64,000 nt of DNA from Chytridium lagenaria (lineage: Eukaryota; Chytridiomycota; Chytridiomycetes; Chytridiales; Chytridiaceae). Where the stretch lies: positions 124,001-188,000 of the forward strand of contig JAHLKC010000052.1 in assembly GCA_025449115.1 (NCBI GenBank), written 5' to 3'. This document shows, piece by piece, positions 17,148 to 61,229 of the stretch. Within the stretch, counting starts at the first letter, position 1; every line of letters begins with the position of its first letter. The notes under the pieces are model-generated. The model made no database searches, had not been told where the DNA came from, and saw only the letters and a list, made by a program, of their open reading frames with translations. The position numbers and the translations under genes are program-made.

Positions 17148-19137
17148 ATGGGTGCGAATCGGCGGGAGAGGTTCTCTCCGACAACGCCATTCTCACAATT
17201 CATCCATCCCACCTCCTTTCAATACATCCTATCCGCTGGGAAACAATTCTCTGTTCTATCTCATAGATGGGTTAGAACAAAAGGCTTTGTGCTGTCATTA
17301 TTCATCCTTCTCATGCTGTCGTTTGTGCTGTACTCTCCATTCTCCAGAAAAGCTTCCACAAGGTACATCCATTATTCCCATCATCCCTAACTCTTCTCCA
17401 GCATAGTAACTTCTGATGCATCCCTTGGCTCCTTTCCTCAACCCGATTCTCGCACAAAAGCTTTAACAAAGGAAAGTGCAGCAGGTCTAGGCGTCATGTC
17501 TTTAAAAGACCGATACTTTCGGGTTTCAGGCTTCAAGTTCTGCGAGACCCTTAACAACGCTAGTTTTGATTCATTGGCGTATATCGAGAAATGGGGTGAG
17601 ACGGTTGCTGAACGAAAACCTACCATGTCAGAGTTTACGACTTTTTTGGATAATGAGGCAAAGAGGGTCATGATGGTGTTGATGGCGAAAAATCGGTTCT
17701 TGTCGATAAAAGTAAATACTCCTTGTTCTTTCTTAAGATTTGTTTTAATACTGGAATTAGGAAATCGGACGGTTTGCTTGCTATTGTGTTGCTGAAGGGT
17801 CGAATAGCCTGGCTAGTATATCGCCTACAAGACTTTTGGATGTCGTAGACCCGCTTAAATACTTTAAAGGCGTCATCCCCGCGTACGCCCCAAAACCATC
17901 CAAGCTCCCAGCTCCCAGAAGAAACTATAAGGTAACCCTCTGCACGGTGGTATTTTATCAAAAAATGAAGAAAAATGAAACAAAGCAACCTGACTATTAA
18001 TATTACCAGCTCGCTTTCCTCCTCATGGTCCATGGTGACAAAACCATGCTCGAAAACATCAAATTCCTAATCGACGAACTCGACGATGGTTCCTCCATCA
18101 TTCTTATCCACGTTGACCTTCATTCCATCGAACTCTTTGAGGCCGTCGCCGAATACATCACAGACGTGACGCTAAAATGAATTCCATCCTTCGACCCAAC
18201 TCGGACCCTCTACCTGGAAACGTTCATCTCGCTGAATACAGATACCATGGTCGATGGGGACATATCAGTCTTGTATGGATTCAATTAAGCGGGTTTTGGG
18301 AGTTATTGGATTTAGCGAATTTTCAACATGTCATTAATCTCTCTGGGGTTTAATGTACCGCTGAGGAAGGGGAGAGAGATTCAAAGAATCTTGGGACAAG
18401 CGAAATTCGCGGATAAGAATTTTATCAGCCATTGGGGGCAGTATTGTACGTTAGTTTGATAAAAACCCATTGCTTATCCACCTCTTTTCTGTAGATCATA
18501 TGGCTCAAAGAATCACTCGACCACATCTTCCACGTATGGATAGAATGCATACCGAATTCAACGTCTTTCATCCAGAAGAATCCGGACTCATGTTCCCTCC
18601 ATATCCTCGTTGGGCAGTCTGCAAACACCATCAATGGCTCATCCTCACAAGAGAAGCCGTCGAACACATGAGGGAAAGCAGTCAAGTCGCCACAGTTCTA
18701 GGTTTCTCCGAACACGCATGGATCCCAGACGAAGGTTTCTTTTGTTACGGTAAAAAACCCCACGCTTTTCCTCTGTGTCTAACCTCCCCCCAAAAAAAAC
18801 AGTTCTCCTCAACTCCCCCACCTTTAGCAAAAAAATTATCAACGACAACAAACACTACCTCACCTTCCCTCCCAACAACTACCACCCCAAATTCCTCGAC
18901 ATGGAAAACACCATCGATATCGGAACGGGCGATGAGGAAGTGGATCGTGATAACCCGCGGTTCTTGTTTGCCCGAAAAGTCGATGTGAGACATGAAGGGG
19001 GGAGGGAGCTTGCGAAATGGATATCACAGCAACATCTTTTGAAACATTTGAAAAAGGATCACGAGTATGGGATTTTGGGAGGGGAGGATTTCGTCGTACC
19101 CGCACATTTCGATCCCTCGGATTTCGTGGAAAGATGA
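17148..19137 (+). CDS. GT14-like (core-2/I-branching, xylosyltransferase-type) glycosyltransferase, copy 1
   Basis: Six exons: 17148-17362, 17402-17711, 17761-17931, 18010-18445, 18495-18749, 18803-19137. This is a type II membrane protein: a basic N-terminus, then a TM segment FVLSLFILLMLSFVLY at residues about 47-62, then a lumenal part. The family blocks are YKLAFLLMVHGD, FLIDELDDGSSIILIHVD, ISLVWIQLSGFWELLDL, FQHVINLSG..VPLRKGREI, FISHWG, CKHHQWLILTREAVEHM and the C-terminal DNPRFLFARKVDV. This matches the Branch domain (GT14), Golgi enzymes that add GlcNAc or xylose. It is a paralogue of the gene at 32884 with the same intron positions. Exon 4 contains an extra G in the G4 run at 18345-18348 and a compensating one-base loss near 18175-18200; the total (1722 nt) is divisible by 3. 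The acceptor sugar is unknown. Confidence 0.82.
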
Positions 19138-19505
19138 TCATCCCACTATGCTTTGTTTTGATGTCTGATATTTGGACATACTTTTAAATCACTATAAATT
19201 TCTATAAATTCTGTCAAAAGGTTTCATATCATATGTTGGTTTTCCGCTGTATTTTAGTTTGGGAGATTCTTTCTCCATCCGAAAACGATCAAGAAGAAAG
19301 TAAAATGTTTCGATGATAAACGACAACATTTGAGAAAGGACGAGTATAAGATTTTGGGGGAGGATTTCGACGTACCCGCACATTTCGATCCCTCGGATTT
19401 CGTGGAAAGATGAAAATCCCACTATGCTTTGTTTTGATGTCTTGATATTTGGACATACCTTTAAATCACTATAAATTTCTATAAATTCGGTCAAAAGGTT
19501 TTACA
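19085..19505 (+). repeat. Tandem duplication of the 3' end of the GT14 copy-1 gene
   Basis: The last coding ~50 bp, the stop codon and about 95 bp of 3' UTR (about 19085-19232) recur at about 19357-19505. The offset is 276 bp, measured at the stop codon (TGA 19135 versus 19411). Differences are few. The extra copy lacks an upstream exon and is presumably non-coding. Confidence 0.85.
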
Positions 19506-20009: not shown

Positions 20010-21536
20010 TCAAAACCTTCCCCTCATCATATCCGCACACACCTCCCCAACCATGATAGCCGGCGCGTTCGTGTTCCCACTCACAAGTGTTGGCATGACA
20101 GACGCGTCGGCAATTCGGAGGTTAGAGATGCCGTGGACTTTAAGGGTACGGGGGTCAACGACGGACATGGGGTCGTTCCGGGGTCCCATTTTGCAGGTGC
20201 CGACTGGAGGTATAGGTTAGTGATGAGATGGGAGTGGGTGTAGGGGTGTGAAATCAAAAGGAGGCGTTTGCCGAAATAAGGAGGGTAAGGAAAGAATTGG
20301 GGTATGAATAAGGGCCCCAAAAAACGGAGGGAGAATAAAAGCAACAAAAAAGTAAAGAAAAAAACAAACAAAAACGAGTTCTTATAAGTAGGTTGCGTAG
20401 TAAACCCCCAAAGTATTCTATACTTTTCCCGAAACAAGGAACGAAACAAAGAGGGAAAACAAAAGATTGCTAAATCTTACCAGGATGATACAACGTGACC
20501 GCACCCCTCCTAACCAATTCCCTCAAATACAAATCACTTTCCACAGCCTCCCCCTCCCCACACCCCAAAACCCTCATCACCTCCAACACAACCCCTCGAT
20601 CCACAACCTCCCCTCCAATAGCTCCAGGTCGAATCTTCTCCATCCTCTCAAACACTTTCCGTGCAGCCCTCATTCCCCTTCACCAGCGTGTCAACATCAT
20701 CATCGCGGGAGAGGTATTGGGGGTCAATGAGTGGAGGCGTCGAGGCATGCGCAGAGGAGAGACGGATGGTACCGGTGGAACGGGGGTGGAGGATCGTTGG
20801 CGCGATGCTGATGTAGGGACCGGGGAGAGAGGGGTTGAGGGTTGGGAGGACGTGGAGGGAAGCTTCGGCGGGGTCGTGGGCGTCGGGACGGGTGGGATCG
20901 ATCGGGCCGAGGTGGCGGGTTTGGAGACGCATCTGTTTTTTAAGTGTTAGTTGAATAAAACACACAAACAACAAAAAAGCTCAAGCAAAAAAAAAAGCCA
21001 AAAACAAAAAACAAAGAAGCGTACAACATCTTATAAAAAAAAAACAAAAACAAAACTCTCTACCTTATTCGCCTGCTCCCCCTCCACCGAAATCCCAATC
21101 AAATGCAACTGCATATCCGGTTGTCCATGCCTCTCCTCCTCCCCATCCTTATTCACATTCAGAAACGCATACCCCTCAACCCCACTGCAACTCAACATAC
21201 CAGACTTGAAAAACTGGTATTCCAACAACGCCTTGACAATCGCTCCCGGTGTGGTTCGATACACGCTGTTGGTGAAATCTTGCCGGGATACACCTACACA
21301 GAGATGGTCACGGAGGTTGGATCCAACTCCAGGGAGGGATTGGACGATGGGGATGTGGAACTTGTCAAGCTCCGAGCTGGGGCCTGTGGAAAAAGAAAGT
21401 AAGAACAAAACCCCGCCAAGCGTAAAAAACAAAACAGAAGGAAGCATGAAAAAACGAAAGATGCAAAAAAAACGATCATTCAACAACAACAAAAACAACG
21501 TAAACGACAACAAACCCCAATCCCCCCCCCCCAAAA

Positions 21537-21572
<36 letters not shown>

Positions 21573-26600: not shown

Positions 26601-26700
26601 TCCACCAACTCAGCCAAAAGAATCCCCCAAAAAGAACAATTTTAAAAAATCAAAAAAAGAAAAAAAAACAAAAAAAAAAAAACAACCACCAACCACCATA

Positions 26701-27297: not shown

Positions 27298-29016
27298 AAC
27301 TAAAAAAAAAAAACACACACAACCGCATAAAAAAAAAACTCTTACAATTTACATCCATCCGGCACCCCCTCATACGTAAACACCTCCTCATCAAAATACC
27401 CAACCCGATACGCCATACTCGCAAACGCATTCCCCCATCCATCACAAAAATCCTCAGTATTAAAATACTCTGAATGCCCTTCATACCACATCTCACAGAT
27501 AAAGCACGGAATGGCATCAGAGTGAAGCTCAATGGCGCCTACAAGGACTTTGACAATATTGGGGTGATAGGACATGTCGTCGTCAACTGCAAAAAAAAAA
27601 AAAAAAACGGGTGAATATCAACGTTTTTGGGGGAAAAAAAAAAGGGGTGAATATCAACGTTTTTGAAAATTTTGATAGTGGTTTTGATAAAGAGGATGGA
27701 TGGAGGGGTGATGAGGTGGATGTGTACCTGTGATGACGATGGTTTCGGGATCTTTTTCGACAAGGAGAGACCCGAGAAGTTTAGTGCTATAAAACAACAC
27801 CAAAGAAAATTAATTTTTGGGTTTCCCGCGTTATGGGGTGAACAAAAAAAGAAACGCGATAATAAATCGCTATAAAACAACACCAAGGAAATCTAAGTTT
27901 TGGGTTTCCCGCGTTATGGGGTGAACAAAAAAAAAACGCGATAATAAATCGCTATAAAACCAAAGAAATCTAAGTTTTTGGGTTTCCCGCGCCATGGGGG
28001 TGAACAAAAAAAAAAAAACGCGATATAAATCGCTATAAAACAACACCAAGGAAAGTTTTCGGTTTCCCGCGCCATGGCGGTGAACCCCAAAAAAACCACG
28101 CGAAATCAACCTACCTTGGACCATAATCCTTTGGATGGGTGACAATCAACCACCCCTCATATTTTTCAACCAACGCATCGATAACAGTGGTATCCGCGGC
28201 GCCCGACTGAATCCGTTCAATCTTTTCAGGAATGTGGAGGTACATGGCATCGGGTCTTCGAGTTTGGTTGTAGATGGAGTCGATGGTGTTTCGGATTCTT
28301 GCGGATCTGTGACCAAATGTGGAGAGGGAGACGACGACTCGGGGACGGAGGTAGCCAAAGGATTGGGGGGGGTGAGAGAGGGTGTTTGGGGGGGTTGAGA
28401 GAGGGTGGTGTTTGATGGGGGTGGGTGGTGGGGTTGCGTGGTGTTTAGGGTGGTGTTTGATTGGGATGGGTGGGGTTGAGAGAGGGTGGTGTTTGATGGG
28501 GGGATGGGTGGTGGGTTGAGAGAGGGTGGTGTTTAGTGGTGTTTGATTGGGATGGGTGGGGTTGAGAGAGGGTGGTGTTTGATGGGGGGGATGGGTGGTG
28601 GGGTTGAGAGAGGGTGGTGTTTGATGGGGGGGATGGGTGGGGTTGAGAGAGGGTGGTGTTTGATGGGGGTTGAGAGAGGGTAGTGTTTGATAGAGGGAAG
28701 AGTGATGGGATTGAGAGAGGGTAGTGTTTGACGAGGGATGGAAAGCAGGTTGTTGTTGTTGTTGGTCATTGAGCAAAGGTGCCCACAAGTTGGATTGAAT
28801 GTAAAAGATGTGTAGAGACACAAGCACCGCGACAGCCAGGAGGATGGTGAGTTTTGGAATGGCCGTGATGGAGGAGAATGCTGAAGACAGGAAAGAGGGT
28901 GGATGCGGTGGTGATGGTTGTGGTGGGAGTTGTTGTGATGGGGATGATGGTGACATGAGTTGTGATGGAGCAGGGAAAGGTGATGATGGTGATGATGAAG
29001 GCTTTCGGACCCTCAT
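26701..29016 (-). CDS. GT-A-fold glycosyltransferase, type II membrane protein (462 aa)
   Basis: Four exons (28115-29016, 27728-27786, 27346-27586, 26701-26887) total 1389 nt, in frame throughout. The cytosolic tail is S/P-rich. A TM segment (LTILLAVAVLVSLHIFYI, about residue 55-72) is followed by a repetitive stem of Thr/His/Pro/Ser. Then RVVVSLSTFGHRSARIRNTI and SIYNQTRRPDAMYLHIP form the donor-binding beta strands. VITVDDDMSYHPNIV gives the DXD-like metal site, split by an intron. HDDVYLSGWARRRGYRPYVI supplies a second conserved acidic motif. This layout fits GT2-like lumenal glycosyltransferases of protists and fungi. Donor and acceptor are unknown. The stem is encoded by a minisatellite and intron 1 holds another. 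Confidence 0.75.
27787..28112 (-). repeat. Intronic minisatellite, ~80-bp unit, four copies
   Basis: CTATAAAACAACACCAAGGAA, then a GGGTTTCCCGCG motif and GGGTGAAC followed by A-runs and ACGCGATAATAAATCG, repeats about four times (starts near 27787, 27868, 27950, 28032). On the coding (minus) strand each unit contains TTTTATAG, the same acceptor that begins exon 2. Confidence 0.85.
28355..28740 (-). repeat. Coding minisatellite in the glycosyltransferase stem
   Basis: On the plus strand, variants of GTTGAGAGAGGGTGGTGTTTGATGGGGG(GGATGGGTGGG) repeat about a dozen times with unit lengths of about 25-45 bp. The reading frame stays open through the array, encoding variants of SLNP, HHPLSTPP and TLSQP depending on the local phase. 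Confidence 0.85.
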
Positions 29017-29741: not shown

Positions 29742-31810
29742 TCAATGCTTCTTCTCCTGCAACCTATACAAAGCCAACAACACCCCTTTACTAGCAACCC
29801 TCGCCCCCAAATCCGCCTCCGCCACAACCTCATCCTCACACTTGAACCACTTAAACCCCCCAAACTCCTCGTATAAGCCAAAAACCGTCCCTCCGTCTGC
29901 GTCACAAACCCATGCAACTTATAAAAAGTACTCCGCTCCTTTCCCCCATGCTCAATCACTTTAGCCGCCTTTCGATCCAACGCAAACCCAAGATCAAGAT
30001 CCATCGGCATCTCCACTGCAGTTCGATGATACACACCGGATAACGTCAACGGACGCTTGAAACTAAGAACAAGAAGTTCGGGGAGCCGCGTGAACCGAAC
30101 CGTGGGGGTGGCCGCGGTGGGTTTAGAGATGGACCCGGACCGAGGCCGAGAGAGAGGCGTGGGAGCTCTCGTCACGTCTTTGAAAAAATCGAGTTCCTCA
30201 CAAGCCCGTTGGAGGCGTTTGGGGTGGGTCCACCGAAAAAAAAGGTGGGTTGTGGTTGCAAACCCAGCGTTTTGTTGATGAGCGCAATCACATTGACTGT
30301 ATCGTTTCAGTGTAATCGTGAAGAGGGAGGGTGACCATGTGTGGGGAATCACCCAGGCATAGGTTCCCTGTTGATCCTTTATCCTTTTCAGCAGCGGCGG
30401 CGCAACCGTCATTGTTGTTGACGAGAGAGGACGCGCTGAATTCTGATGAGGAGGGGGTGGTTCGGAGGTGTCTTGGATGAGACTAGAGGCGGAAAAGGTG
30501 AAGCTGTCTTTACGGGTGGGGCCAATGGAGGAGGTGGAGGCGGAGATGGGTTTTGGGGTGGGGGGGATATCCATTTTGCGTTCTGACACGAAACGGCGAC
30601 CGATGCGAGATGGGCCGAGAACATAGTCTAGAAGCGAGCGGCTCAGTTTTTCATAGTCTGCGATGGATTCAATGAGGTCCTACACCCATTATAAGTGATT
30701 TTAAAAAAGAAGTTTTCAGTCAGTGTTGGTAAGAGGTAAAGAAATAGATGGCTCCGCTTGGGGAAAAAGAAAAAGAAAAAGAAAAAGACTAGTTCTATAT
30801 ACATACATCTTCGGGGGAATCAGAGGAAGACGGGAGACTTGATAACTCTCTCCACCAATCCATGTCCACTTTATCCGCTTCGGCCACTTTGGTGGCATTG
30901 CAATGAACGTATTTCACAGTTGTCACAAATCGACGTGTACTCTCGCTCGATGATGAGAAGGGTAGCTCTTCAGTCATTTCTGTTTACAGTATAAATAATA
31001 AAGGGTGATTAATGATAATGAATGAGCATGTCCATGGAGATGAATACGAGTTTTGTATGAAAAGTCCTTTAAACTCTTTCCCGTGCACTCGCTCTTGCTG
31101 TTTAAATCCATTCAACACTATTTAATCTCCTCTCTACCTATTGCTCGCTACGCTCGCTCTTAACTACCTATTGCTCGCTACGCTCGCTCTTACTACATAT
31201 TGCTCGCTGCGCTCGCTCTTACTACTCTCGCTCTTTACTACATATTGCTCGCTGCGCTCGCTCTGGCTGCGCTCGCTCTTACTACATATTGCTCGCTGCG
31301 CTCGCTCTCGCTACGCACGCTTTTCCTACATATTGCTCGCTGCGCTCGCTCTGGCTGCGCTCGCTCTTCTTACATATTGCTCGCTACGCTCGCTCTAAAC
31401 TAACCTGGCACGGCCAAAAACACCTGAAAGGTTGAATTCAACGCCGACTGCACCCTCGACTTTCTCAGATTGGGCAAACCACTCAAATAATCATTTGCGG
31501 CAAAGGAGATGGAGGGTTCATCGCCATCTTCTTGAGGAGGATGAACAATGATGAGGGAGCAATGGGACGGGATGAGGAGGTGAGGGATGTTGTGGAGGAG
31601 AGGAGGGAGGAGGTGGAGATGGAAGAGGTTGCGACGGATGTGAGGGAAGAGGCGGAGAAGTGGAGTCGGTGAAGGTTTGGGAAGAGGAGATGGTGGACAT
31701 TGAGGTGGGGGGTGGGGATAGTGGTTGGTGGTGGTAGTAGTGGTGGTGGTGGTAGGTAGTGTTTTTTTTTTGTTGTTTAGAGGATGAGAGATGGGATGAG
31801 GATCATTCAA
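29742..31810 (-). CDS. USP-family deubiquitinase-like protein, catalytic residues not evident
   Basis: Starts at MNDPHPISHPLNN with a Thr/Pro-rich N-terminus. The block YLSGLPNLRKSRVQSALNSTFQVF aligns with the USP Cys box (GL.NLGnTCy.NS.lQ.l), but there is no Cys and the loop is three residues longer. A minisatellite-containing intron (about 30978-31403) and a second intron (about 30680-30795) follow. The later part has LPELLVLSFKRP, VEMPMDLDLG, YKLHGF and EGRFLAYTR where USPs have GHYvAY, so the His is replaced by Arg. Then in a shifted frame come FGGFKWFKCEDEVV and the C-terminal KGVLLALYRLQEKKH with stop at 29742. The family cleaves ubiquitin; this member is predicted inactive or scaffold-like unless indels have altered these sites. 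A C.C pair (SQCDCAH) may belong to a zinc finger. Confidence 0.6.
31135..31400. repeat. GCTCGC minisatellite inside an intron
   Basis: Roughly eight copies of a ~25-30-bp unit, TACATATTGCTCGCTGCGCTCGCTCT with variants, lie within the first intron of the USP-like gene. The unit is partly palindromic (GAGCGCAGCGAGC and its complement). On the coding strand it carries GTAAGA-like strings resembling splice donors. Confidence 0.9.
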
Positions 31811-32883: not shown

Positions 32884-35800
32884 ATGACCCCACTCAACTC
32901 CCACTGGTCCTCTCCACCAACCCCCATCTCCACCCCTCCTCAAAACCGCAACCCCGCTCCACTCTCCCCCGCCACCATCCTCGACGTCCCAGATTCCACC
33001 ATTGACAAGAAATTCCGTCGTCGTCCTTGGCTCTCACTCTTGAAATGTTGGGGAAAGAATGTCCGTGTGAGAACGGTCGTTGTCACCGTCGTGCTGGTCG
33101 CCGTTTACGTGGTCTTGTCGAGAGCGTTGGAGAGAGGCGTGGCTGTGAGACATGAGTATGTATCCCTTTTTCCTGTTTTCTCTTTCTTTTTCTTTTAAAG
33201 AGGGATGCGAATAGAGTACTGTGGATTGTGTTCCAAGATAGATATCAACATTGACGTGAGCTTAAAGATCAGATATTGTAAATTCATGGTTATTCTATCG
33301 ATTGGCAGAGATCATGCACATATTTATTCACACATTCATATTTTCTGTATACATTTCTAACCTCATCCTTCATCTCCCTTACTTGAATCTACACAAAACC
33401 AGCGGCCAACAACCGCCACCACCACCACCATCACCACCATTCCTCCTCCCTCCTCCCCTCTCCCCCCAACCTCGACCCCCACCACCTCTCCTACGTCAAC
33501 CTCAGCGGCGCTGGTCTCTACTCTCTCCGCAAAAAAACCTCCTCCCCCTCCGGCTACGACCCTGTCTACCTCGACTCCCCACCCATCCTCAGCGCCTCTG
33601 CCCAAACCGTCATGACCACCATTGCTGCACTCGGTTCCCAACGTTATTTCACTGCAACGGGATTCGAGTTCTGCACTGCACTCAATAACGCTACGTTTGA
33701 TAGTCTTGCCGTCATTAGTGAATGGGGGGATGTGACTATTGCGAAACGAAACCCGAATATGCAAGAGTTTACAGAGTTTATTGATCGACATGCGAGGAGG
33801 ATCATGTTGATGTTGTATGGTCGAAATCAATTCTTGGAAGCTCAGGTATTTATTTGCTCACAATCACCATCATATATTTTTTTTTTGCATTATTTATTTA
33901 TTTTTCTATTTTTTTTTTATTTTTTACGAGTATCCCGTCTTTTTCTACTGTATCTCGCGTAAACACTTTTATTTCACTTTATGTCTTTGTTTCACTTACC
34001 ATTTTCATCCCACCTCAACTTTTATCTTTTAACACGTTCCCACCATCAACCCCGTCCATTTTACCCCTTTACATTAACACGTTGCCAATTCACAGGAACT
34101 CTCCCGCTTTGCCTGCTACGCCGCCGCAGACGGCGCCAACTCTGTCGCCAACCTCAGTGACACCCGCATCCTCCACCTCGTCCACCCCGACCACTACATC
34201 TCCCCCATCATCCCCCTCATCAAACCCTCCCCTCCCGGATCCCAGGCCCCCGTCGTCACTACAAACTCGCCTACCTCATCATGTCCCACGGCGACGACAC
34301 TGTCCTCAAAAACATCCGCACCCTCCTCGACTCTCTCGACGACGGATCCGCCATCTTCCTCATCCATCTCGACCCCGACGCCGACACGCTCCATCAATCC
34401 CTCCTCACCTACATACAGGAGCGCGAAAAGACCCTCAAAAACACACCTGGAAACATTTTTCTCTCGAGTTTTCGGTATTCTGGATTGTATGGACATGCGG
34501 GACAGGTGTGGATGCAGTTGAGCGGGTATTTTGAGTTGATGGATTTGGCGGATTGGGAGAGTGTCATTAATTTGTCGGCTTTTGATGTGCCGTTGAGGAA
34601 GAGTAGAGAGATTGCGAGGGTTTTGGCGAGGCCGGAGAATAAAGGGAATGAATTTATTGCGCATTGGGGGATTATCGTGAGTTTTTTTTTTTTTTTCTAT
34701 TGTTTTCTTTTCTTGACGTACTTTTTTGTATCGCCCTTTTTCTGCCCCTTTTTTTTCTTGTAACAATCATCGTCAACCACAACCCTCCTCTTTTGAATGT
34801 GAACCATCAGTTTCCAATTTGCAATCATTCAACCTCCCCATCACGTTTCCATCCCTCCTCTTTTTAAGACAAACCATCACGTTTACATTTTACAATCATT
34901 CAACCTCCCCATCACGTTTCCATTCCCTCCTCCTCTTTTTAATACAAACCATCACGTTCCACTTTACAATCATTCAACCTCCCCATCACGTTTCCATCCC
35001 CCCTCCTCCTCTTTTTAATACAAACCATCACGTTCCACTTTACAATCATTCAACCCCCTCCCCTCAACCCCCTCCATCCCGTTCCCATGATGCACTCATC
35101 CAACCATCCCCAAACTAACCCCTCTCTTTCAGAGGAAATGGCTGTCCGTTTCGTCCGTCCCCACCTCCTCCGCACGGACCCCTCTCCACCCGAATTCATC
35201 ACCTTCCATCCCCCAGAGGCAGGACTCATGTACCCGCCCTTTTACAGTTGGAGGGTGTGTCGACAGCATCAGTGGATGATTTTGACGAGACGGTTTGTTG
35301 CGCATTTGAGGGGGAGCGCGGAGGCGATCACGGCTTTGGCGTTTGTGGAACATACTTGGGTGCCGGATGAGAATTATTTTTGTTATGGTGGGTGGTGTTT
35401 TTTTTTGGTTTTGGAGGAGGGGTTATGGGTGTGGGTTTTTTTTTTTTCTTTTTTGGTTTGTTTGTTTCCTTTTGTTTAGAATTGGGGGCGGGTTTTTCTT
35501 TCTTTCCTTTTCTTTAGATTGTGGTTCTTTTTTTTTCTTTTTTTTTCTTTTTTCGTTTCTTCGAACCCTCTTTTTTTGGAGAGGATGAGTTGATACTTTC
35601 AATTTGCTGTTTTTTGTTTGTTTTTTTTTTTTTTGGTTGAGATGAATTACACCAACGCGCTGTTCGCTGTTCGCTGTTTTTTTTTTTTTTTTTTTTTGCT
35701 TTCTGATTGAGTTGATGATACACACCACTTTTTTTGTTTTGTTCTGACTATCATTTTTATTATATTATTTTTTTTGTCTATTCATCCAACCCGGTTTTCT

Positions 35801-36203
35801 TTTTTCTTTTTCATGTCATCACTATAGATATCCCAACTAACTCTTTTTTCAATCAGTCGCCCTCAACACCCCCCAATTCACATCCAAAGTGATCAGCGAC
35901 AACAAACGCTACGTCACCTTCCAAAAATGCACGCCCGCCACCTCGAATACGACCAACGCAACGAACTCGAAGTCCCCGGTCTCTACGACGACCCCGGTTT
36001 CGACCCCCACACCCTCAACGACACGGACAAGAAGATCTCCCAAGAACGAGACAACCCGCGGTACTTTTTTTGCACGGAAGATTGATGTTCGAACGTTGGG
36101 TGGAGCGGAATTGGTGAGATGGATTCAGGAGACGCATGTGGAGAGGTTTGTGGCGAGGGTTGGAGGGTTTTATGGGGTTTTGGGGGGAAGGGTGGACGAA
36201 TGA
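32884..36203 (+). CDS. GT14-like (core-2/I-branching, xylosyltransferase-type) glycosyltransferase, copy 2
   Basis: Exons about 32884-33155, 33403-33845, 34096-34676, 35133-35387 and 35857-36203, matching copy 1 in position. Type II topology with TM segment VVVTVVLVAVYVVLSRAL (residues about 65-82). Conserved blocks: YFTATGFEFCTALNNATFDS, YKLAYLIMSHGDDTV, LLDSLDDGSAIFLIHLDPDA, GQVWMQLSGYFELMDL, SVINLSAFDVPLRKSREI, FIAHWG, CRQHQWMILTRRFVAHL, FVEHTWVPDE and DNPRY-F..ARKIDVR. It likely acts in the Golgi, transferring GlcNAc or xylose to a surface glycan. Comparison with copy 1 pinpoints one-base changes: a missing C in C5 at 34247-34251 (restoring APRRHYKLAY versus APRRNYKLAF), a shift at the A5 run near 35925, and an extra T in T7 at 36065-36071. 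The true C-terminus may extend beyond 36203 in a neighbouring frame. Confidence 0.82.
34790..35085 (+). repeat. Intronic pyrimidine-rich minisatellite, ~65-73-bp unit
   Basis: Four to five copies of TACAATCATTCAACCTCCCC, then ATCACGTTTCCATCCCTCCTCTTTTT and A(A/T)ACAAACCATCACGTTC, fill the intron before exon 4 of GT14 copy 2. C/T-rich on the coding strand. Confidence 0.88.
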
Positions 36204-44609: not shown

Positions 44610-46743
44610 ATGGTGCGTTCCATCATCCATCCCACCCATCGTCCTTGCGTCATATCGCATCTCCTTTCTATTCTTATTTTCTTCTTTCTTCATAGTCTTA
44701 CAGCGACTCAAGACCCCTCCCGACAGGATGGTCTGCAGCATGGGACTCGAACTACGGACGTTTCTATTACATCACCCCAGAAGGAACCTCCACCTGGCAT
44801 GATCCAAGAGCACCTGTTTCCACAACAACTACAGCCCCATCTGCCTCAACATTCACCTCTGCCCCCTCTACGGTTATTTCTGAACCAACTCCACCACCCG
44901 ACACACAGGTATAACTTGTTTACTAAGACATCTGTTTAACGTCGTAGGATCTACCTTCTGTTCCGGCTATGAGGACGGCCTCGCCGTTGCCTATTGAACC
45001 CACACCTATGTATGAGGAGAAAGGCATTGCGGGTAAACCTTCAATGACTTTTTCGGATGTGCCGTTGGCGGATGGGAGGAGTTCGTATGCGGCGCCGGAT
45101 AGCTATCAGAGTGGAGCCCCAATATTGGCTGGAGCAGGTTTGTTTTTTGCTCCTACTTTATATTTAGTCCAAAATGATGGTTTATCGTTTACATTATTTG
45201 TTCAAACCTAACCCTTTTTCCATTACCTGTTTTTCGGTTAATTCCCAAATAAACAGCTCCCGTCGCCTACTCCAACATCTATGACCACGCCAATTACAGT
45301 TACGACAACGGAGGCTCCATGCCCTCCCAACCAGACCCAACCATCCAAAAAATGTTTGACCATGACCAACCCCGTCGTGCCTCCGCCGCTGGACTCCTTA
45401 CTCACCCCCACGACCCCAACAGTGGCTACTACGACCCCAATTACAACGCCTACGCCTCCCCGCAGGCCGCTCAACTCCGCGATCGATCCGGCAGTATCCC
45501 CAACACTGGAACCTACTATGCTCCTGGAGTTGGAAATGGGCCTGGGGGCATCCATTACTCCCAACTCCCCACTCAGGACGCCAATTACGGCACTTCATCG
45601 TCTGGGTACCTTACCGACCAACCATACCGTCAATCCCTCGCTCAGCCCCACAACCCTTCCACGACAACCCCATACCGTCCCAGCACCGCTCCCACCCGCG
45701 TGTCTTCCCCACCCCCTTCTACCCGTCGTCCATCCGACCCTACCTTCCCACCGCCCTCCTCCACCGTGAATCCCCATAAGCGGTCTCAACGCTACTGTTG
45801 CGGTTGTTTCCGTACCCGTGGTGGGTGTTGTGCGTTCTGGTGGATCCTGGTCTTGTTGTTCCTCGCTGGAGCTGGTGTTGCTGTCTTCTTCTTTTTCCCA
45901 AGAGCGCCTATTGTTGTTGTTGGACAACCTTATGTCAATCCTGGGACTACTGGATTGAAGACGTCGGGGGATTTAGCGACGGCGAGTGTTGCAAAGCCCT
46001 TTATTATTGAGTTTGATTTGAGGACGGATGTGTCGATTTTCTCGCCTAATAGAGTTAATGTGAAGGTGGATAAGTTGACGTTTGTGGTAAGTACCCTTCT
46101 TTGGTTGGCTTATATCTAGTTGTTTTATTGTAAATGACATGCGCCAAAATCGAATTGTTGCTTTAAGATGTGCAACTAATTACGTGTTTTTTTAGGGCAC
46201 TTTGCTTGACGCTGCCCGTAAAAAGTTGAACGCAAGGGCGAATGGACAGGCTAACAGTGTCACTTTTAAAAGCAACGCCAACACTACCTTTACACTCGTA
46301 AGCCCACCTCTCTCATCTATACGTATTTCTTTACCATACCAACAAACTCATACCCCCCTTTTTTCCAGCCCGTCACACTCGCCTACTCTATCACAACGCC
46401 CGCCACATTCATCGCCCTTGTTCCCGACCCTGTCGTTGCGGTTCTCTACCAATCCTGCTTGGCGCCTGGCAGTAAACCGAATCTTCGGATGAGTTATACC
46501 ACGCAGGTGGAGATTGGATTGATCAGTTGGACGGGGTATAAACCGAGTTTTGATGGGGATTTGGATTTCCCTTGTCCTGTCAATGGAGCGACTTTGACGA
46601 GTTTGTTGTCTAAACGAGGGGGGAGTAGGTTTTCGGGGAGTTTTTTGAGTGTGTGGGGAAGTGCTTTATGTTTATGTGCTTTATGGTGGAAGGAGACTTT
46701 GGTTTTAGGTGATTTGGGGGTGGTGCTTGGATTGTTTTTTTGA
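44610..46743 (+). CDS. WW domain - TM - LEA2-like protein (570 aa)
   Basis: Six exons: 44610-44612, 44696-44908, 44948-45137, 45257-46086, 46196-46297, 46369-46743. They total 1713 nt, in frame throughout. Exon 1 is only the ATG. A WW domain opens the protein: RPLPTGWSAAWDSNYGRFYY, ITPEGTSTWHDPR, with both Trp and the final Pro present. Then come a long Pro/Ser/Tyr/Asn-rich linker, a Cys-rich juxtamembrane motif (YCCGCFRTRGGCCAFWW), a TM segment ILVLLFLAGAGVAVFFFF, and a lumenal or extracellular LEA2-like beta domain (FIIEFDLRTDVSIFSPNRVN, then KVDKLTF). WW domains bind Pro-rich ligands on the cytosolic side, often ubiquitin-ligase adaptors. LEA2/NDR1-like domains occur in membrane-attached fungal vacuolar proteins. 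The fusion suggests an adaptor; its partner is unknown. Confidence 0.82.
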
Positions 46744-47514: not shown

Positions 47515-47926
47515 GTGGAAAACACGAAAGGAAGTTTGTTTGCACCAAAAGTGTGAATAAAGAGTGGTTTATTAAGTAAGTTGAGTGAAAAGTTGGAGTG
47601 TGTCAACTAGAGGGAAAGCGCTTGCAAGTGCAAAAGGTGGTGTGAGGGAAAGGAGGTGAGTGCTCCTTTTATATGCGAGCGCTGTTCCCTTCAGAGTTGC
47701 TGCGGGCTGCTTCAAGGGAAGCGTACCGCCACTTTGGCGTTTTGAGACGATGGGTGAAGGGGGTGAGTTGAAAGGACAGTCAAATCAATGAGTGTAACCT
47801 GTTTATAACCCAATAAATCAGTATACTTGTGTAACTTGATTCTTTATTTGTTTTGTCTCCAAGGTTGGTATCCCAGGAGTCCGTCGGCCTTTGGAGGCGG
47901 CAACGGAACCTCACTGGTTTCCAACA
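47515..47926 (-). repeat. Copia 3' LTR
   Basis: 412 bp. On the minus strand it begins TGTTGGAAACC and ends near GTGTTTTCCAC. Differences from the other LTR include GGTGGTG/GGTAGTG, GATGGG/GACGGG and a 2-3-nt indel. Confidence 0.92.
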
Positions 47927-47929
47927 CTT

Positions 47930-50900
47930 CCCCCCAGGTTTGGAAGCTCGGTAGCTTGCAAAGATGCAAGTTGACGCATGCCGAGGGATTCTCTATGTTT
48001 GAGAAAAATGGTTGGAGCGAGTGCTTTGGTAAAAATGTCAGCGATGTTGTCGGTGGTGCCGACTGCCTTACTTGAAAGAAGTTCTGTTCAACTAATTCGC
48101 GTATATAGTGTACGGAACGTCGAATATGCTTGGTTTTCTCGTGATGTTCAGGATTGTACGCGAGGTGAATGGCTGACTTGTTGTCGTTGTAAAGGTTAAC
48201 AGGATTTAGCGTGACGCCAAGTTCTTCAAGAAGTTTGAAGATCCAAACAATCTCTCGTGCACTCTCAGAAACGGTTTGATATTCTGCTTCTGCGGTTGAG
48301 AGAGAGATGGTTCCTAACTTCCAACTTCGCCATGAAACCAGGTTCCTCCAAAGAAGAACGCGTACCCGACTTGGGACTTGCTGTCGTCTGGATCGGACTG
48401 AAAGGATGCATCGCAGAAACCGACGACGGCATTGTGTCCCTCATTTGTATAAAGGATGCCTAAGTCACGAGTGCTCCAGACGTAACGGAAGATACGTTCA
48501 ACCGTTCTCCAGTGTGTTTGGGAAGGATTTCCCATGTGTCTTGCCGCAACAGAGACGGAGTAGCTTATGTCGGGTCGAGTTTGGGTTGCTAAGTACATCA
48601 ACGCACCCACAACTTGAGCATATGGACCGCTGGAGGCTTCTTCGCTCGGTTTCTTGCGGAAGATCTTGGTCGTGGAGTTCATGGGAGTGGACTCGGGGGT
48701 AAGGTGTGTGTCCGAGAAGAAACGTCGTTTAAGTTCGTTGACGTACTTATGCTGGTGTAGCAGAAGTCCTTCTGGCACCTTGGTGAATTCGACACCTAGA
48801 CCAAAGCTGGCAGATCCAATGACCTTGACCTCGAAGCGGGCTTGTAAGTAGTCTAATGCCGTCTTAACGGCTTCGTCCGTTCCAAAGAAGAAAAGGTCGT
48901 CGACATATATGGCGATGAGAACACCAGGTGTGTCCAGAATGAAGAGGCAAGGGTCAGCGCAACTTGGAAGGAAACCAATTTCCTTCAAGTAATCTGTAAG
49001 GCATATATTCCAAACGCCGTCCAGCTTGCTTGGTGCCATATAGTGACTTGACGAGTAACCATACTCTCTTGGTGCCATCGCCGAAACCTTCAGGCTGTTC
49101 CATGTAGACGGCGTGGTCCATGTCGCCGTAAAGATACGCGGTAACCACGTCGGCCATGTGAACTTCGAGGCTGCGAGATACGGCAAAGCTGAAGAGCCAA
49201 CGGAGTGTTTCAGCACGAACTACGGGAGCGAAGGTCTCAAGGAAGTCAATCCCGTACTTCTGCGTGAATCCTTTGGCGACCAGTCTTGCCTTGTACCTTA
49301 TGGTTCCGTCGGGATTCTTCTTGAGGCGAAAAACCCACTTGGCGCCTATGACATGCTGACCTTGAGGTCTGTCTACGAGGGCGTAAACACTTCGAAGTTT
49401 GAGGGCTTCGATTTCAGCCATGCATGCGTTTCGCCATTCTTGACCATCGGGGTGAGAGAATGCTTCTTGTTCGGTTAATGGATCAGGTTGGTGTCTTGGT
49501 TCATAAGGTTCAGTAACCTTGGTGTTGTAGAGATGAGTTGGCTTCTTGACCTTGCGGCCAGAGCGAGTCCCATCCGTTGTTGGCATAACCTCGTCAATGC
49601 TGCGGTCACTATAGTTGCCGAGGTTGGATTCTTCGCTCTCGCTTGATGCTATTGAAGCGTCATCCAATAGGTTGGTGATGGGAATGGTTGCAGAAGTCCC
49701 GTCGTCCTCGCTTGTGGACTCGTCTGGTTTGGACCATAGAGATGTGTATCTCTCGTGTTCAGGGTTGGTTCCTGAATTTGTGGGTTCCAAGTCAGAGTCC
49801 GTGTCAACGTGGCTTGATTGTTGCCTTCCCCCCGGACGAGGGACGTTTGGAAACACGGGGGTCGTGAGGAGGTGGACGATTCTCACGGGAACGCTGTAAG
49901 TATAAGTTAATAATTGAAATATAATGAAATAATAAACAAAATTAAGCTTTTTGTGAGAAAAAGAGTATATTAATGGATGATGCGGGCATAAGAGCCAAAC
50001 AACTTTGCGATGTTTTCCACTCATTAACTACAACATAAAGGTATGTGCTCTGTGGCTACACATGTCAATCCACAATATTGATATTTTTCATAAGGTAAAT
50101 TATTTTCTGAAGTTTATCAAGCAATACCTTAGCGGTAAGGGTGGTTGAAGCGAATTCTTGCTCATCCTCGCTAGTGGAGTCGATCTCGACGTTATCTTGT
50201 TCATCTGCACATGAAAGACAAGGTGAGAAGATGAGAAGAAGCATTGACACGGTTTGTAGTTACCATTAATAAACTGCAAAGGTTCCCTCATGTGAGAGTG
50301 CGAGAAGACGCGGTGCAATCTTTGAGCCGTAGATTGCGGGAAAACGGCGATCAAAGAAATCGCAGTTTTTGAGGTGAGCCGCATGCTCATGGCCTGTGTG
50401 GATGTCGAGGACGATTGCTTTGGAGGAGCTTTCGAGGCCGACAAAGATGTTCTTGGCCATGCGAGGCGCCATGCGGTGAGTGCGGTTGATTTTAGTGACA
50501 TGAATGCCTACTAAACAACCAAAAGGATGAAGATCTTGAAGAGTGGGTTGCTTGCCGTAGAGTGCTTCATGTGGAGAGAGAGCGCCTTTCTTGGTGGATG
50601 GTATGAGGTTATGGAGATATGCGGCATGGTTGACTGCATAACCCCAACACCAAAGAGGAAGGCGGCATTGAAGCATGAGGGCGAGAGCTTTCGTGAAGAT
50701 GGTGCGGATATGGCGTTCAGCGACGCCGTTCATCCAAGATGAGTCGGCATCAGTCCATGTAGGTTTGATGCCACTCTTTTCGCACCAACTAACGAAGTCG
50801 TTATTCTTCATTCTTTAGCTTGATCGGCGCGTAGTTCAGTGACGATGGGATCTTCAGGAGTGTGATGAAATTCTCGTCGAAGTGTTTCGATGAGAGTGAT

Positions 50901-52130
50901 GACCCTGTCAGCAAGCTGGCTTTTGGTAGGGAGTAGACTGACCCAAACAAACGAGGTTGATGAGTCAACGATGACTGCAACCGTGGTGCTGCCCTTGTGG
51001 GGTGCTTGACTCGGTCCGAATCCGAGGTCCACGTGTATACGCTGAAGACGTCGAAGTTGAGCTCTTGTGGAGTCATTCTTGGAGGTCTTGCGTTGTCGTG
51101 TTGAGGAACAAACGGTGCAAGGGTCGAGTGCGTCTAAGTACCGTACCAGTGCCTTTGATCCGATGCCGTAAGCTTGTTTCTTGCGAAGCATGCGCTTCAT
51201 TACTTGCCGTGATGGGTGACCGAGTGAGGTGTGAAGTTTCTCAAGTTCTCGTTCCATGACGGTTTGGTTGGCAAGATCGAATTGCCCATCAGCATGGAAC
51301 GAGGAGAAGTCGTTGGAGTCAACGATGTGGTGATTGCTCCAAATGTTGGTGGGAGCTCGAGTCCTTGAGGGGAAAGCGAGAGGATCATTAAGCCTGAAGG
51401 GGAATCAATGATTTCTGCTACTTCACCGTCACCTGGTCTTGTGAGGAAAGACCCTCCTGGACCATCTTGCATGTAGAGTCCAGCATCTCGAAGAGTGTTC
51501 CTTGAGACTAAACGGACGCGTATGCTGGGAACATACAGAGCAGGGAATTGGATGGGATGGCCAAGGTTTGTGAAGCCTTTGACGATCCCAAGCATTTCAC
51601 TTTGTTCACCAGCAAAGGCACCGTCAACGCCAGCGCGATACGGTGTTGGGTCTTGGAGGTCCTCGAGGAACGGGGTGAGAGCTTGGTCGGTGAGTCCTGT
51701 GTCAAATGCCCATTGACTCACGCCGTCGTCAAGGTCCGGTGGATACGAAACTTGCAACTTGAAGGGCGTCAATGTTGACAGCGGCAAAGAAAGCAAAGCG
51801 GGGTCTCTTGGGAGGTATGCTAGAAGTATCAATCTTTCGTTTGCCGTGATCTTGTCGTTCGACGACTTCAATTACTGGGAAGGTCTCGTTCCTTGACTGG
51901 ACGTGGTTGACTTGGGTTTTGCGCACAGACGACGAGTTCTTGAGTTCCGAGAGTTGCTCCTTGAGTTCGTTCACCGTTGTGAGTAAGGCTTGCATGGTTC
52001 CCTTGTAGCCTGTCTGGGTGTGCGAGACGGTCTTGGTACCAGCAACTTAGACAGTCGATGGAGATTGCCCTTTGGTGTTGCAGGCAACGCAAGTTAGGTC
52101 TTTGCAGACTCAAGCGTCGAGGCTTGGTCA
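47930..52130 (-). CDS. Copia Pol (protease, integrase, reverse transcriptase, RNase H), interrupted
   Basis: A degenerate zinc knuckle (CVACNTKGQ) is followed by protease with WAFDTG. Then the GAG-pre-integrase zinc site (H..LGHPS..CTVC) and the integrase with DDE residues in HVDLGF, ELRADQAKE and GVAERHIRTI. The RT has KWVFRLKKNPDGTIRYKARLV, VVRAETLRWLF, VTAYLYGDM and the catalytic IYVDDLFFF. RNase H has GFCDASF, STAEAEY and YNDNKSA. These enzymes copy the RNA to cDNA and insert it. Frame changes occur near 50810, 49825 (G6), 48960-49000 and 48315. Segments 50205-50263 and 49894-50127 have GT..AG ends and look like introns. All catalytic motifs are present but no intact frame exists. Confidence 0.88.
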
Positions 52131-52329
52131 TTCTTTGAGTTGGCCGAATGTAAAGCCGGTCGAGTGCACGGAGTTTGGTCCTGCCTTGGCGATCAGCTTT
52201 GCATCTGGGTGCAACTGGTGGAGTCTGTCCTTGCCTTGACCTTTGCCTTGTTTTCCTTGCGCTTGAGTTTTTCCTTGCGGAGGACCAGAGTTGGTTACCG
52301 ACAACACGAGGGTTTTGAGTCGGAGTTAG

Positions 52330-53270
52330 TGCGATTGTGAATGCTCACGAACGACTCCATGCTTTTCAGCATTGTGAAGAATTACATGATTCACATGGCC
52401 TATGGCTCATAAGGACATTCCGTCTAAGTCCGTTGAGTTCCGTTATATCCCGCGTCGACGCGTATATTTACGCGTCATATTGAATCCTCCCTTCTTTTCC
52501 CTTTGGGTTTTTTATATATATACTTTTTCCCCACGTTTATAGGGTTTTTATTGAAGGAGGTAGCGCGCATATGTGCCGTTTATATGTGTGTGCATATGTT
52601 GTGTCTATTATTTATTTGTATTTTGTGTATTACTTTAATAGGAGAGATTTCTTGATTTAATTTGTACCTTGTTGAATTAAGTAGTTGATATTGAGTTGAT
52701 CCCCCATCCTCTATCACCACGCGCGTGGCCTCGCGGCGTGATCTCCCCTTCACTCTTAGTTGGATGACAGTCGACCCCTCTGCCCCCTTACCACCTGGTG
52801 AAGCTGCAATCCGGCCGTTTGAGACGGAAGGCTGTGATGGAATCCCTCCTCATTCACAGTGTCCTTTAGTCGAGGCTTGGTCAGCTACATTCCACCTCTG
52901 GTGCTCTCTGACCCGATGATCAGGCGCTAACGGCAGGCAATGAGTGAGGTTACCCTGTTCTAAGCTCTGAGAGGCAAACGAGAGCCCATGTTCCAAAAGG
53001 TGCCATAGTAGGATGGCATGGAGACTTATAGCCATCCCCGATCGCCAGGAGACGATCTGGTGCTGATATTGGTTTAGCAGCAAGGTAAGTCGATAATGAA
53101 GATACTAAACACGTTCCCTTCTCCCTTTACATAAGCAGAACCTCGTGATCACTCACCCACACCATCGCCAAACAACAACAACATCACTTAGATTCAGGAG
53201 TACATCCTGTCCCTAGGTGCTCTGTGGACTTGCTCTGCTGGAGCAACTCCTTTACTCTTCTCCCCTACCC
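52330..53270. other. Non-coding spacer between gag and the pol region of the copia element
   Basis: About 0.9 kb without a credible frame separates gag from the Q/K/G-rich segment (PPQGKTQAQGKQGKGQGK) near 52240-52300. An inverted repeat, CCCTACC..TAG/CTAGGTAGGG, at 53262-53290 marks the gag-side edge. It could be a nested insertion, although no second terminal repeat or duplication was found. Confidence 0.5.
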
Positions 53271-53891
53271 CTAGTCGAAGCTAGGTAGGGAGGGATGGGT
53301 CAAGAGAAGATCACAGCATGTTCTTGGTTGTTGTCTCCTTGGCGAGGTCATCACAGCGTGACGATGTCCAAATCGGGTTGATTTGCCGGCAATTCGGAGT
53401 GCCTTGATGAGATGCTCGCAAAGAAGACTTTCCGTGGCTTGCTCGGCTTGGTTGGCTTTGGACAAGGTGTCCCAAAGAGATCTCGCGCGAGAAATGAAGG
53501 ACACAGGCGTGTCTTTAGCCTCGTACTTGATGTCACGGAGCTTCTCGCGGAGTTCACCAACAGCCGAGGTGTTGTTCATGCCGTAGGTCTTCTTAAGGAA
53601 AAGAAGAAGTTTCCTTGCCGTCTTCGAAACCTCTGGAGGCGCCTCGTTGATGATCTTGAGGATGTCCCCAGAGACGTTGCTAAGGATAGCTTGGACAACC
53701 TTGGCGGAGTTCCTCATGCGCTTGTCGTATTTCCTGTGATTTTCGTCATAGTACGCAGTGGTGAAGACGCCCTTGAAACTCGAAGTTTGACGAGCAACCC
53801 AGTTCTTGACGCCGTTGATGAACGCGGGCCAATCAGACGGGTTGTTGAGCGGGACGATACCAATGTTCTTGAACGACTTGTCAGAGGACAT
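53271..53891 (-). CDS. Copia Gag (UBN2-type capsid)
   Basis: Begins MSSDKSFKNIGIVPLNNPSD. The frame covers WPAFINGVKNWV, a helical capsid core, TARKLLLFLKKTYG, LREKLRDIKYEAKDTPVSFI and ALR, the layout of copia Gag that coats element RNA. After about residue 165 the coding sense moves to another frame (LPANQPDLDIVTL), so the last ~40 residues of the open frame are probably spurious. The zinc-knuckle region lies about 1.2 kb downstream. Confidence 0.85.
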   Translation of the reverse strand: MSSDKSFKNIGIVPLNNPSDWPAFINGVKNWVARQTSSFKGVFTTAYYDENHRKYDKRMRNSAKVVQAILSNVSGDILKIINEAPPEVSKTARKLLLFLKKTYGMNNTSAVGELREKLRDIKYEAKDTPVSFISRARSLWDTLSKANQAEQATESLLCEHLIKALRIAGKSTRFGHRHAVMTSPRRQQPRTCCDLLLTHPSLPSFD

Positions 53892-54001
53892 AGCGACGCG
53901 ATGAAGAAACTTGAACGAGGGACGCGAGTGCGACTTTGAAGATGGAAGGGAGTGGGGTTCTCTTTAATGTACACGAGTGGTGTGCACTTGACTGCGAATC
54001 T

Positions 54002-59646: not shown

Positions 59647-61229
59647 ATGTCCTCCACTTCGAACATCACAGGAAACAACGACGACGACCTAAGTCGCCGC
59701 GCGGCTACTTCTATTGAGGCTTCACAGGCTCCTCTCAGCTCATCCGTCATTCTCAACCTACTTGCGGACTCCGTATCCACCGCTACACAGCAACAGGATG
59801 CGTCAAACGGTCTTCGGTCACCAGCTGACCTCGTCTTCGCCACCCTCCATGCCATCATGATCAGTTTAGGATTTCGATTCAGAGGACTTGGTGAGAGTGG
59901 ATCCACACCATCTTCTGGGAGGAAGAGACTAGCCGTGCCGAGGGGGTGACAGGGATCGAGGTAGTGCAGTTGCCGGAAGGTTGGAACGCGCGGTGGTGGA
60001 ATGTATGCTTTTCGATATACACATCCAAGGTCGGCCTTTACGTTTTTGTTAAAAGGGATGGGTATTGCGGACCGACTAGTCATTCACTGTCTTGCTATTG
60101 AAGTAAGATCCTATTTTAATCCTGTGTATGATACGTCATTTATCTAACCTATCACTTCAAAAAGGATAACCGCCTTCAGAGCGTAGAATTGACCGTCCCT
60201 ACCATCGTTGCCAAGTCCGCCACCTTCCCGCCGTCTGCCCCATCTTCATCATCGTCTGGCGATTCATCATCATCCACCAGCAACCCCCTTCTGTCCCTCT
60301 TCGCCAGCGAGAAGGCACTCGTTGACCTCATCTTCAAGTTTAAGAAGGACATTGTTGACAAAGTTGCACCAAATCTCGGCAAGGAAGGATACGAGCCTAC
60401 CGCCATCGATGCGGCATCGTCGTCGTCTGCTGCGAGGCAGGCTGAAAGGAGAAGGTTCCCTGAATTTGGCGGGATCGTAGATCCGGGGTTCGCGCCACCA
60501 CCGGTGGGCGGTGGGTTTGGGCCGAGAGGTGGTTTACCGATGGGTGGACGGAATCCTTATGGTGTTGGGGATGTGGATTTGGATCCGTTTGCGGCTGCAC
60601 CTGGAATAATTCCTCCTCGGTGAGCTTTTAAGTTTACATTGTACTCGTCTCTGCCATCATTTTTTTAACGTGATTATGTGCGTTTTCTTACACCTTTTCA
60701 TTACAGTGGCGGAATGCATCCAGGTGGTGGAATGTTTGTTGGACCTGATCACCCCATGTTTGGTGGTGGTATGGGCGGCATGGGAGGAGGTGGTGGGCGC
60801 TTCCCACCCGGTGGAGGGGGCTCTTTCCTGCCGCCAGGTGCGGTTCCGCCAGGTGCAAGGTTCGATCCTATCGGTCCCTTTGGTCCGCGACCAGGATTTG
60901 GAGGTGGAGGTATGGGAGGTGGACCTCGGGGACCTTTTGGACCTGGAGTTGGAGGTGGACCTTTGGGACCGTTTGGGCCCAATGCAGGTGGTGGGGCTCT
61001 TGGACCGTTTGGACCAGGTGTGGGAGGGGCCTCTTGGGCCGTTTGGGTCGGGTGTAGGAGGTCCTAGACCAGGGCTGGGGGTCCTCGGGACCCAACGAGG
61101 AGGTGAGCTTTGTTCGTTGTTCTTTTACGCCTTTGGATTGCTAATACAGTTCAACTTATATCTACTTTAAGATCGGACCCTGACTTTGATGAATTGCTTC
61201 CCCCTGGGTACGACAACATGTACCTTTAG
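59647..61229 (+). CDS. PI31-like proteasome regulator (FP domain)
   Basis: Starts MSSTSNITGNN, with an N-terminal PI31 domain: ADLVFATLHAIMISLGFRFRG, then LPEGWN, then YAFRYTHPRSAFTFLLKGMG and LVIHCLAIE. An intron (60099-60164) is followed by a Ser-rich linker, helical EKALVDLIFKFKKDIVDKVA and DVDLDPFAAAPG. After a second intron come GGMHPGGGMFVGPDHPMFGG, LPPGAVPPGARFDPIGPFGP and Gly/Pro/Phe repeats. The last exon gives SDPDFDELLPPGYDNMYL, the classic PI31 C-terminus that contacts the 20S proteasome. The protein modulates proteasome activity and transport in the cytosol and nucleus. One-base shifts occur near 59945, 59990 and 61030 (GGGG). Confidence 0.9.

Follow-up and report, generated by a model that had tools for sequence, protein, structure and literature searches.

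Exons of the chytrid Chytridium lagenaria tend to begin C-rich and to end G-rich on the coding strand, and this swing in GC skew is repeated from exon to exon and reset by long introns. The pattern was described in an earlier note on a 64,000-bp stretch of the genome (C52:124001-188000, hereafter the window); the exon-scale observation is confirmed here as real, and its interpretation is partly supported. The skew is a tendency and not a strict law. A rule holding for every exon was dropped, given that exon 2 of one Branch-domain gene (L003, by reading) stays C-rich up to its donor. Splicing seems not to be required for the polarity, because predicted gene starts and stops and one apparently intronless gene are polarised as well, although the direction is shared by only 2/5 predicted single-exon genes.

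The sample comprised the window, 20 random 10-kb pieces, eight Branch-domain loci and nine short CCT/HSP70 regions, in total about 0.3 Mb of a 41.9-Mb genome of 356 contigs. Exons were modelled ab initio by an unsupervised gene finder, with a coding score conditional on local skew to avoid a preference of direction. The counts leave out exons with a score below 10 or a length below 120 bp, as well as three transposon regions. The gene models are predictions from sequence, in which gene borders and short introns are least certain and some introns are surely false. Single-base frame changes are present in the assembly (e.g., in exon 1 of the SET-type gene, and between the Branch loci L001 and L003).

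The second half was more G-skewed in 237 of 317 ab initio exons, with a mean difference of +0.22. These comprised 53 of the 67 well-scoring exons in the window and 184 of the 250 outside it, the latter set including seven Branch loci (L002-L008). The direction was shared by 61/98 exons of 120-200 bp, 65/87 of 200-300 bp, 56/60 of 300-450 bp, 39/47 of 450-700 bp and 16/25 longer exons; by type, it was shared by 179/236 internal, 37/51 initial or single, 23/35 terminal and 2/5 predicted single-exon cases, and terminal exons were overall more G-skewed than initial exons. Among exons of at least 240 bp, the C-to-G change was significant in 96 of 182 and the reverse change in 13 of 182. The rise seen in 11 of 16 transposon exons was not significant. 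A further set was built by choosing exon boundaries around open reading frames (ORFs) matched by Pfam, made up of seven Branch loci and of 32 ORFs from a scan of 90, several of the 32 lying below the Pfam cut-off and two BT1 ORFs overlapping. ORFs with no, weaker or transposon hits were excluded; among the Branch rows, BrL005 is mis-modelled and L001, a near-duplicate of L003, was omitted. In this set 33 of 39 exons agreed, 16 of them significantly, and one showed a significant reversal.

A change from C to G reads identically on both strands, so the pattern can also be examined independently of annotation. For the same reason, the statement in the earlier note that the pattern holds regardless of gene orientation is uninformative. 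Switches of cumulative skew were scored for period-3 signal, with gene direction irrelevant. In the window, the median signal was 1.85 at 47 C-to-G switches and 0.97 at 47 G-to-C switches (p = 6e-6); in the random pieces it was 1.95 at 129 C-to-G switches and 1.21 at 123 G-to-C switches (p = 4e-5). C-to-G switches thus fall in coding-like DNA and G-to-C switches in non-coding-like DNA in both. When switches were pooled (160 and 160), the former lay in stronger 3-base periodicity (p = 1e-9) and in longer ORFs than the latter. Switches were about twice as numerous as in fully shuffled sequence (47 vs 18-26 in the window; 129 vs 63-74 in the random pieces). In a block-shuffled control run with looser penalties in two rounds, 134 of 244 predicted exons had the same direction (mean difference +0.07).

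The change in composition involves every codon position. Along exons of 200-700 bp, fourfold sites passed from about C.36-.41 and G.13-.15 to C.20 and G.32 with A and T flat, the C share of NNY codons fell from 62% to 33%, and the G share of NNR codons rose from 40-50% to 63-68%. AT skew by exon halves went from 0.012 to -0.003. The first and second codon positions shifted too, the amino acids P, N, T and S yielding to G, W, E and R. Selection at the level of protein or translation was rejected as the main cause, the skew being common to silent sites, introns and gene flanks, and C-to-T deamination as the only cause was rejected because A and T are flat. Introns carried T over A (AT skew about -0.11 to -0.35). 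The switch lay at a median of 0.52 of the exon (10-90% range 0.40-0.73, with no selection on half differences).

Polarity depended on the adjacent gap. At introns of at least 150 bp (n = 65), skew was +0.30 in the final 50 bp of the exon and -0.24 in the first 50 bp of the following exon, and the acceptor side of long introns had a GC skew of -0.21 to -0.35. The C-rich domains centred on acceptors and G-rich domains centred on donors of the earlier note were therefore found at long introns, which supports a reset at exon scale. At introns below 80 bp (n = 103), exon-border skew was near zero. The polarity of an exon end was correlated with the length of the intron on its own side (rho 0.30 each side) vs 0.16 and 0.06 for the other side, and in 45 exons flanked by a long intron on one side and a short one on the other, the end next to the long intron was the more polar in 31 (p = 3e-4). 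Switch strength (n = 261) was predicted by intron length (t = 8.2), intron GC (t = -5.2, AT-rich introns having the stronger switch) and exon length (t = 4.6). The CCT/HSP70 genes, the introns of which are nearly always 41-136 bp, were nearly flat (25/42 exons and 24/42 introns in the expected direction), although a few exons were clearly polar (two in L030, one in L037). The borders of long introns and the predicted starts and stops of genes were polarised to about the same degree. The final 100 bp before predicted stops (n = 36) had a skew of +0.30 and +0.34. For predicted starts (n = 55, declining to 28), skew was -0.26 upstream and ranged from -0.11 to -0.20 over the first 250 bp. The flanks of predicted starts and stops, which would include the untranslated regions (UTRs), were skewed too. 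The tie to splicing that had been suggested is doubtful, given the flat borders, on average, of introns below 80 bp and the polarised predicted gene ends and apparently intronless gene.

Paralogues of the Branch-domain gene carry the swing in their codons; three pattern matches in the window proved to be non-Branch genes and were excluded. Third positions at the exon start had C.50-.74 and G.03-.15 in four of the five copies measured, and at the exon end C 0-.14 and G.41-.55 in five of seven, such that conserved residues use C-ending codons near the start and G- or T-ending codons near the end. Copy L006, by reading, continues across the site of the upstream intron; its start is not C-rich (C.26, G.26) and its end is less strongly G-rich. 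Polarity is absent from L007, a more distant copy. By reading, exons 2 and 3 of L003 form a single C-to-G block spanning a 47-bp intron, a stretch that the gene finder models differently. L001 (C214) and L003 (C32) share 2.6 kb at 99.5% identity with small indels, and probably represent haplotigs, or duplicates arising from the assembly, with errors in homopolymers.

The apparently intronless gene (L014:6926-8783, minus strand) is transposase-derived and of Tc5 type, with a Tc5/DDE_1 hit, and matches the genome at one place only. Its single coding stretch, about 1.9 kb long, has one frame change and no evident intron. The gene is a candidate for domestication, of CENP-B/pogo-like type. It is C-rich over about the first 500 bp and G-rich after; the first ORF, of 1.0 kb, goes from C:G 181:62 to 79:175, and the second is G-rich in both halves with a slight fall (42:129 to 61:108). 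A difference between host genes and transposons was dropped on account of this strongly polar gene: the absence of the pattern from transposons held for the copia segments, none of the six reaching p < 0.1 (three up, three down), and failed for the Tc5-type ORF. An effect as strong in intronless genes and transposons as elsewhere, which the earlier note had named as evidence against its reading, is borne out in part by this gene, but predicted single-exon genes share the direction in only 2/5.

The features counted in the window are collected in Table 1. The 29 host exons in question were hand-picked (the genes of the earlier note plus high-scoring neighbours) and are thus a selected set; 28 of them gain G skew, 19 at Fisher p < 0.01. 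The hand counts given for two exons were exact: C:G 37:22 in the first 102 bp and 12:41 in the remainder of SET exon 2, and 48:19 then 20:53, split at 110 bp, in GT14 copy 2 exon 4. Some of the other exons named there do not follow the pattern or do so weakly, namely two exons of the GMC gene (20481-20637, G-rich in both halves, and 20684-20932, C-rich throughout) and the GT-A exon, also C-rich throughout. That introns start G/T-rich was true of two of the five long introns counted, in SET and GT14 copy 2, and not of the other three. The names WW-LEA2, GT-A and GT14 copies 1 and 2 are labels of the earlier note, and none of the LEA2 and GT-A ORFs that were scanned had a Pfam match.

Table 1. 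Features of the window with base counts or GC skew on the coding strand, from the first to the second part of each feature.
Feature	Position	Strand	C:G or skew	Remarks
SET-type gene exon 1	38915..39392	+	91:39 to 27:99	apparent frame change at one place, probably due to an indel in the assembly
SET exon 2	39799..40010	+	37:23 to 12:41	by halves; acceptor not fixed to the base
SET exon 3	40363..40866	+	114:22 to 16:123	strongest case, p = 3e-36; Rubis-subs-bind PF09273, E = 7e-7
SET intron 2	40011..40362	+	skew +0.47 to -0.45	G-skewed then C-skewed
GT14 copy 2 exon 2	33403..33845	+	117:22 to 43:57	
GT14 copy 2 exon 3 (Branch domain)	34096..34676	+	140:42 to 49:88	PF02485, 23.4 bits, just at cut-off
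GT14 copy 2 intron 3	34677..35132	+	skew -0.59 to -0.87	C-skewed throughout, contrary to introns starting G-rich; tandem repeat 34784-35055 inside
GT14 copy 2 exon 4	35133..35387	+	49:27 to 19:45	by halves
GT14 copy 2 intron 4	35388..35856	+	skew +0.41 to -0.21	G-skewed then C-skewed
GT14 copy 2 exon 5	35857..36158	+	63:23 to 30:49	predicted end
GT14 copy 1 Branch exon	18010..18445	+	70:34 to 32:60	predicted end; found by tblastn with L002 exon
GT14 copy 1 last exon	18803..19137	+	55:24 to 28:52	predicted
GMC oxidoreductase exon	21064..21383	-	52:37 to 16:63	polarised
GMC exon	20684..20932	-	67:17 to 55:22	C-rich throughout, weak case, p = 0.27; ORF hits PF05199
GMC exon	20481..20637	-	5:37 to 7:35	G-rich throughout, counter-example
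GT-A exon	28115..28880	-	185:19 to 151:54	C-rich throughout; tandem repeats inside
UCH-type exon	29840..30679	-	149:74 to 105:120	PF00443, E = 2e-4, 21.9 bits, below cut-off 23.9
WW-LEA2 exon	45257..46086	+	172:69 to 114:105	
WW-LEA2 later exon	46369..46624	+	48:24 to 19:43	
PI31 exon	60165..60619	+	76:43 to 53:84	PF11566, E = 2e-5
copia-type element	47911..53891	-		no GC-skew polarity; six segments counted, none significant

In the window, the 3' end of SET exon 3 is duplicated just past its stop by a 201-bp direct repeat (40681-40881 and 40947-41147, 98% identical). C/T-rich tandem repeats with units of 34-76 bp lie inside or near long introns (34784-35055, 37780-38063 and 39547-39678), and tandem duplication that enlarges introns might account for those that are C-skewed from the donor onward. 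A tandem repeat of 173 bp, A/C-rich and present in about seven copies, occupies 24687-25925, and the long ORF contained there is probably not a gene.

We favour, tentatively and at less than even confidence, the reading that the skew is a border effect blind to direction, most likely caused by strand-asymmetric mutation or repair tied to long AT-rich stretches. At a border between coding DNA and a long AT-rich gap (intergenic or a long intron), on average, the strand heading toward the gap is G-rich and C-poor over about 150-250 bp, and the strand leading away from it C-rich and G-poor. Each border acts largely alone and, as far as the data go, independently of which strand is transcribed. With a long gap on each side, an exon therefore begins C-rich and finishes G-rich, the switch falling mid-exon where the two borders meet. 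A border effect of this kind accounts for most of the observations. The asymmetry may arise at openings or breaks in the AT-rich stretches; for example, exposed 3' single strands on both flanks that lose C would give the observed sign.

Several observations count against this border reading. Polarity is greater at fourfold sites than in the neighbouring intron (+0.31 vs +0.09 at donors, -0.38 vs -0.27 at acceptors), which argues against plain mutation pressure, since this predicts at least equal effects in introns, and flat A and T do not fit C-to-T deamination alone. Exons between two introns below 90 bp still rise in 37/49, with smaller amplitude, compared with 37/46 between two introns of at least 120 bp. 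By reading, some short introns have sharp switches or C-rich exon starts (a 58-bp intron in L003; L005 and L008). Domains can far exceed 250 bp, as in the Tc5-type gene and in Ofd1, where the exon is C-rich over 80% and G-rich over the last 20%. Predicted single-exon genes have the expected direction in only 2/5 and terminal exons in 23/35 (p = 0.09, by halves), and the effects of intron length and AT content rest on ab initio introns, some of which are surely false.

Selection acting on precursor messenger RNA (pre-mRNA) is a serious rival because silent exon sites exceed the intron skew and A and T are flat, and we rate its chance of being right, likewise less than even, only slightly below that of the border reading. 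Sequence that is C-rich and G-poor after acceptors and starts, and G-rich and C-poor before donors and stops, would keep borders free of hairpins or bind splicing or processing factors, mainly where long introns require exon definition. The dependence of polarity on long introns fits this proposal, as does local structure: of the 36 most polarised exons, 33 had weaker 60-nt structure than their global synonymous shuffles, with a mean difference of 2.0 kcal/mol. However, any segregation of C and G weakens local structure, and relative to within-half shuffles the difference was 0.16 kcal/mol (22/36 exons). Predicted stops and the apparently intronless gene are polarised without splicing, and effects on all codon positions and on amino-acid use would be costly. 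The structural exon definition suggested in the earlier note, in which the two halves of an exon, one C-rich and one G-rich, pair with each other to join acceptor and donor, is very improbable. The composition does allow such pairing, with cross-half pairs making up 61% of pairs in polarised exons vs 42% after global synonymous shuffling, and stability is very slightly above that of shuffles. Yet the gain is like that of non-polar exons: against synonymous shuffles, the 36 most polarised of 134 exons were hardly more stable (mean z -0.29) and 20 non-polar exons gave -0.285, the values against within-half shuffles being -0.40 and -0.23. Duplexes between cognate exon ends were no stronger than those between swapped ones (n = 165, p = 0.22), two versions of the comparison for the flanks of 88 introns gave the same outcome (p = 0.46 and 0.66), and the polarities of the start and end of the same exon were nearly independent (rho 0.15, p = 0.054). 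On these tests of duplexes, polarity correlation and folding, pairing was rejected both between exon halves and between intron flanks.

A transcription-phase effect of the kind proposed for yeasts, whereby RNA polymerase II (Pol II) cofactors, repair or the use of cytidine triphosphate differ between the 5' and 3' ends of genes, would explain C-rich gene starts, G-rich gene ends and the greater overall G skew of terminal exons. Introns are not places where Pol II starts or stops, yet the swing is seen in 179/236 internal exons and begins anew after long introns; the effect is improbable as the explanation here and disfavoured as a sole cause. An artefact of gene modelling, or chance, deserves hardly any credence: the gene finder was unsupervised and block-shuffled sequence still yielded the direction in 134/244 exons, but the annotation-free test agrees, 33/39 Pfam-anchored exons agree, and the hand-read exons are extreme. 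Taken further, the border reading would make long AT-rich introns, like intergenic gaps, local sources of strand-asymmetric mutation (through recurrent breaks or openings and 3' single-strand exposure), with the skew as a record of DNA opening and the gene skew of fungi as an effect of borders rather than of transcription; this wider claim is doubtful.

What this chytrid shows is the 5'-C/3'-G skew already known from fungal genes, but at the scale of exons and with long introns resetting it. The accessible text of McLean and Tirosh (2011) describes genes of unicellular fungi with coding strands C-biased at the 5' end and G-biased at the 3' end, offers two transcription-phase explanations, and lists Batrachochytrium and Spizellomyces among its data. 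A and T are flat along the gene there, amino-acid use shifts, and fourfold sites and UTRs are included; in the same way, genes in our sample start C-biased and end G-biased with A and T flat, and fourfold sites, amino acids and gene flanks take part. That text treats whole ORFs with one swing per gene and without separating exons (the word 'exon' is absent from it and 'intron' occurs once), whereas here the swing repeats per exon. Its reset by long introns argues against purely transcription-phase explanations in this genome. A swing that recurs exon by exon, grows with the adjacent gap and is weak at short introns separates transcription-phase from border-based explanations, and the asymmetry of fungal genes may mark borders of coding and non-coding DNA rather than the start and stop of transcription. 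Each gene would offer many natural replicates for testing the cause (e.g., by mutation spectra or intron gain and loss), and in such fungi the position within the exon affects codon bias, amino-acid bias and gene prediction. No report of an exon-level repeat of the skew was found among the papers listed in a literature search, most subscription journals lying outside its scope.

Two further systems are comparable. Strand bias at start sites is the subject of a 2005 paper, presumably by Fujimori, and a splicing-coupled strand asymmetry in mammals was reportedly described by Touchon in 2004. The former covers GC-compositional strand bias around transcription start sites of plants and fungi (PMC555766); the C excess at gene starts is alike, but the accessible part of that paper concerns starts only, with no exon-level repeat or 3' G excess. 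For mammals, the part of a review available to us (PMC10030826, citing Zhang, 2008) gives human and mouse introns with G over C, exons with the reverse, and intronless genes without bias. The chytrid resembles mammals in having introns with T over A and a base bias that shifts at splice sites. It differs in that the skew flips sign inside exons and introns instead of favouring G over C throughout introns. Intronless genes of mammals are described in that review as lacking the bias, and the chytrid may differ here too, with one apparently intronless gene strongly polar but only 2/5 predicted single-exon genes in the expected direction.

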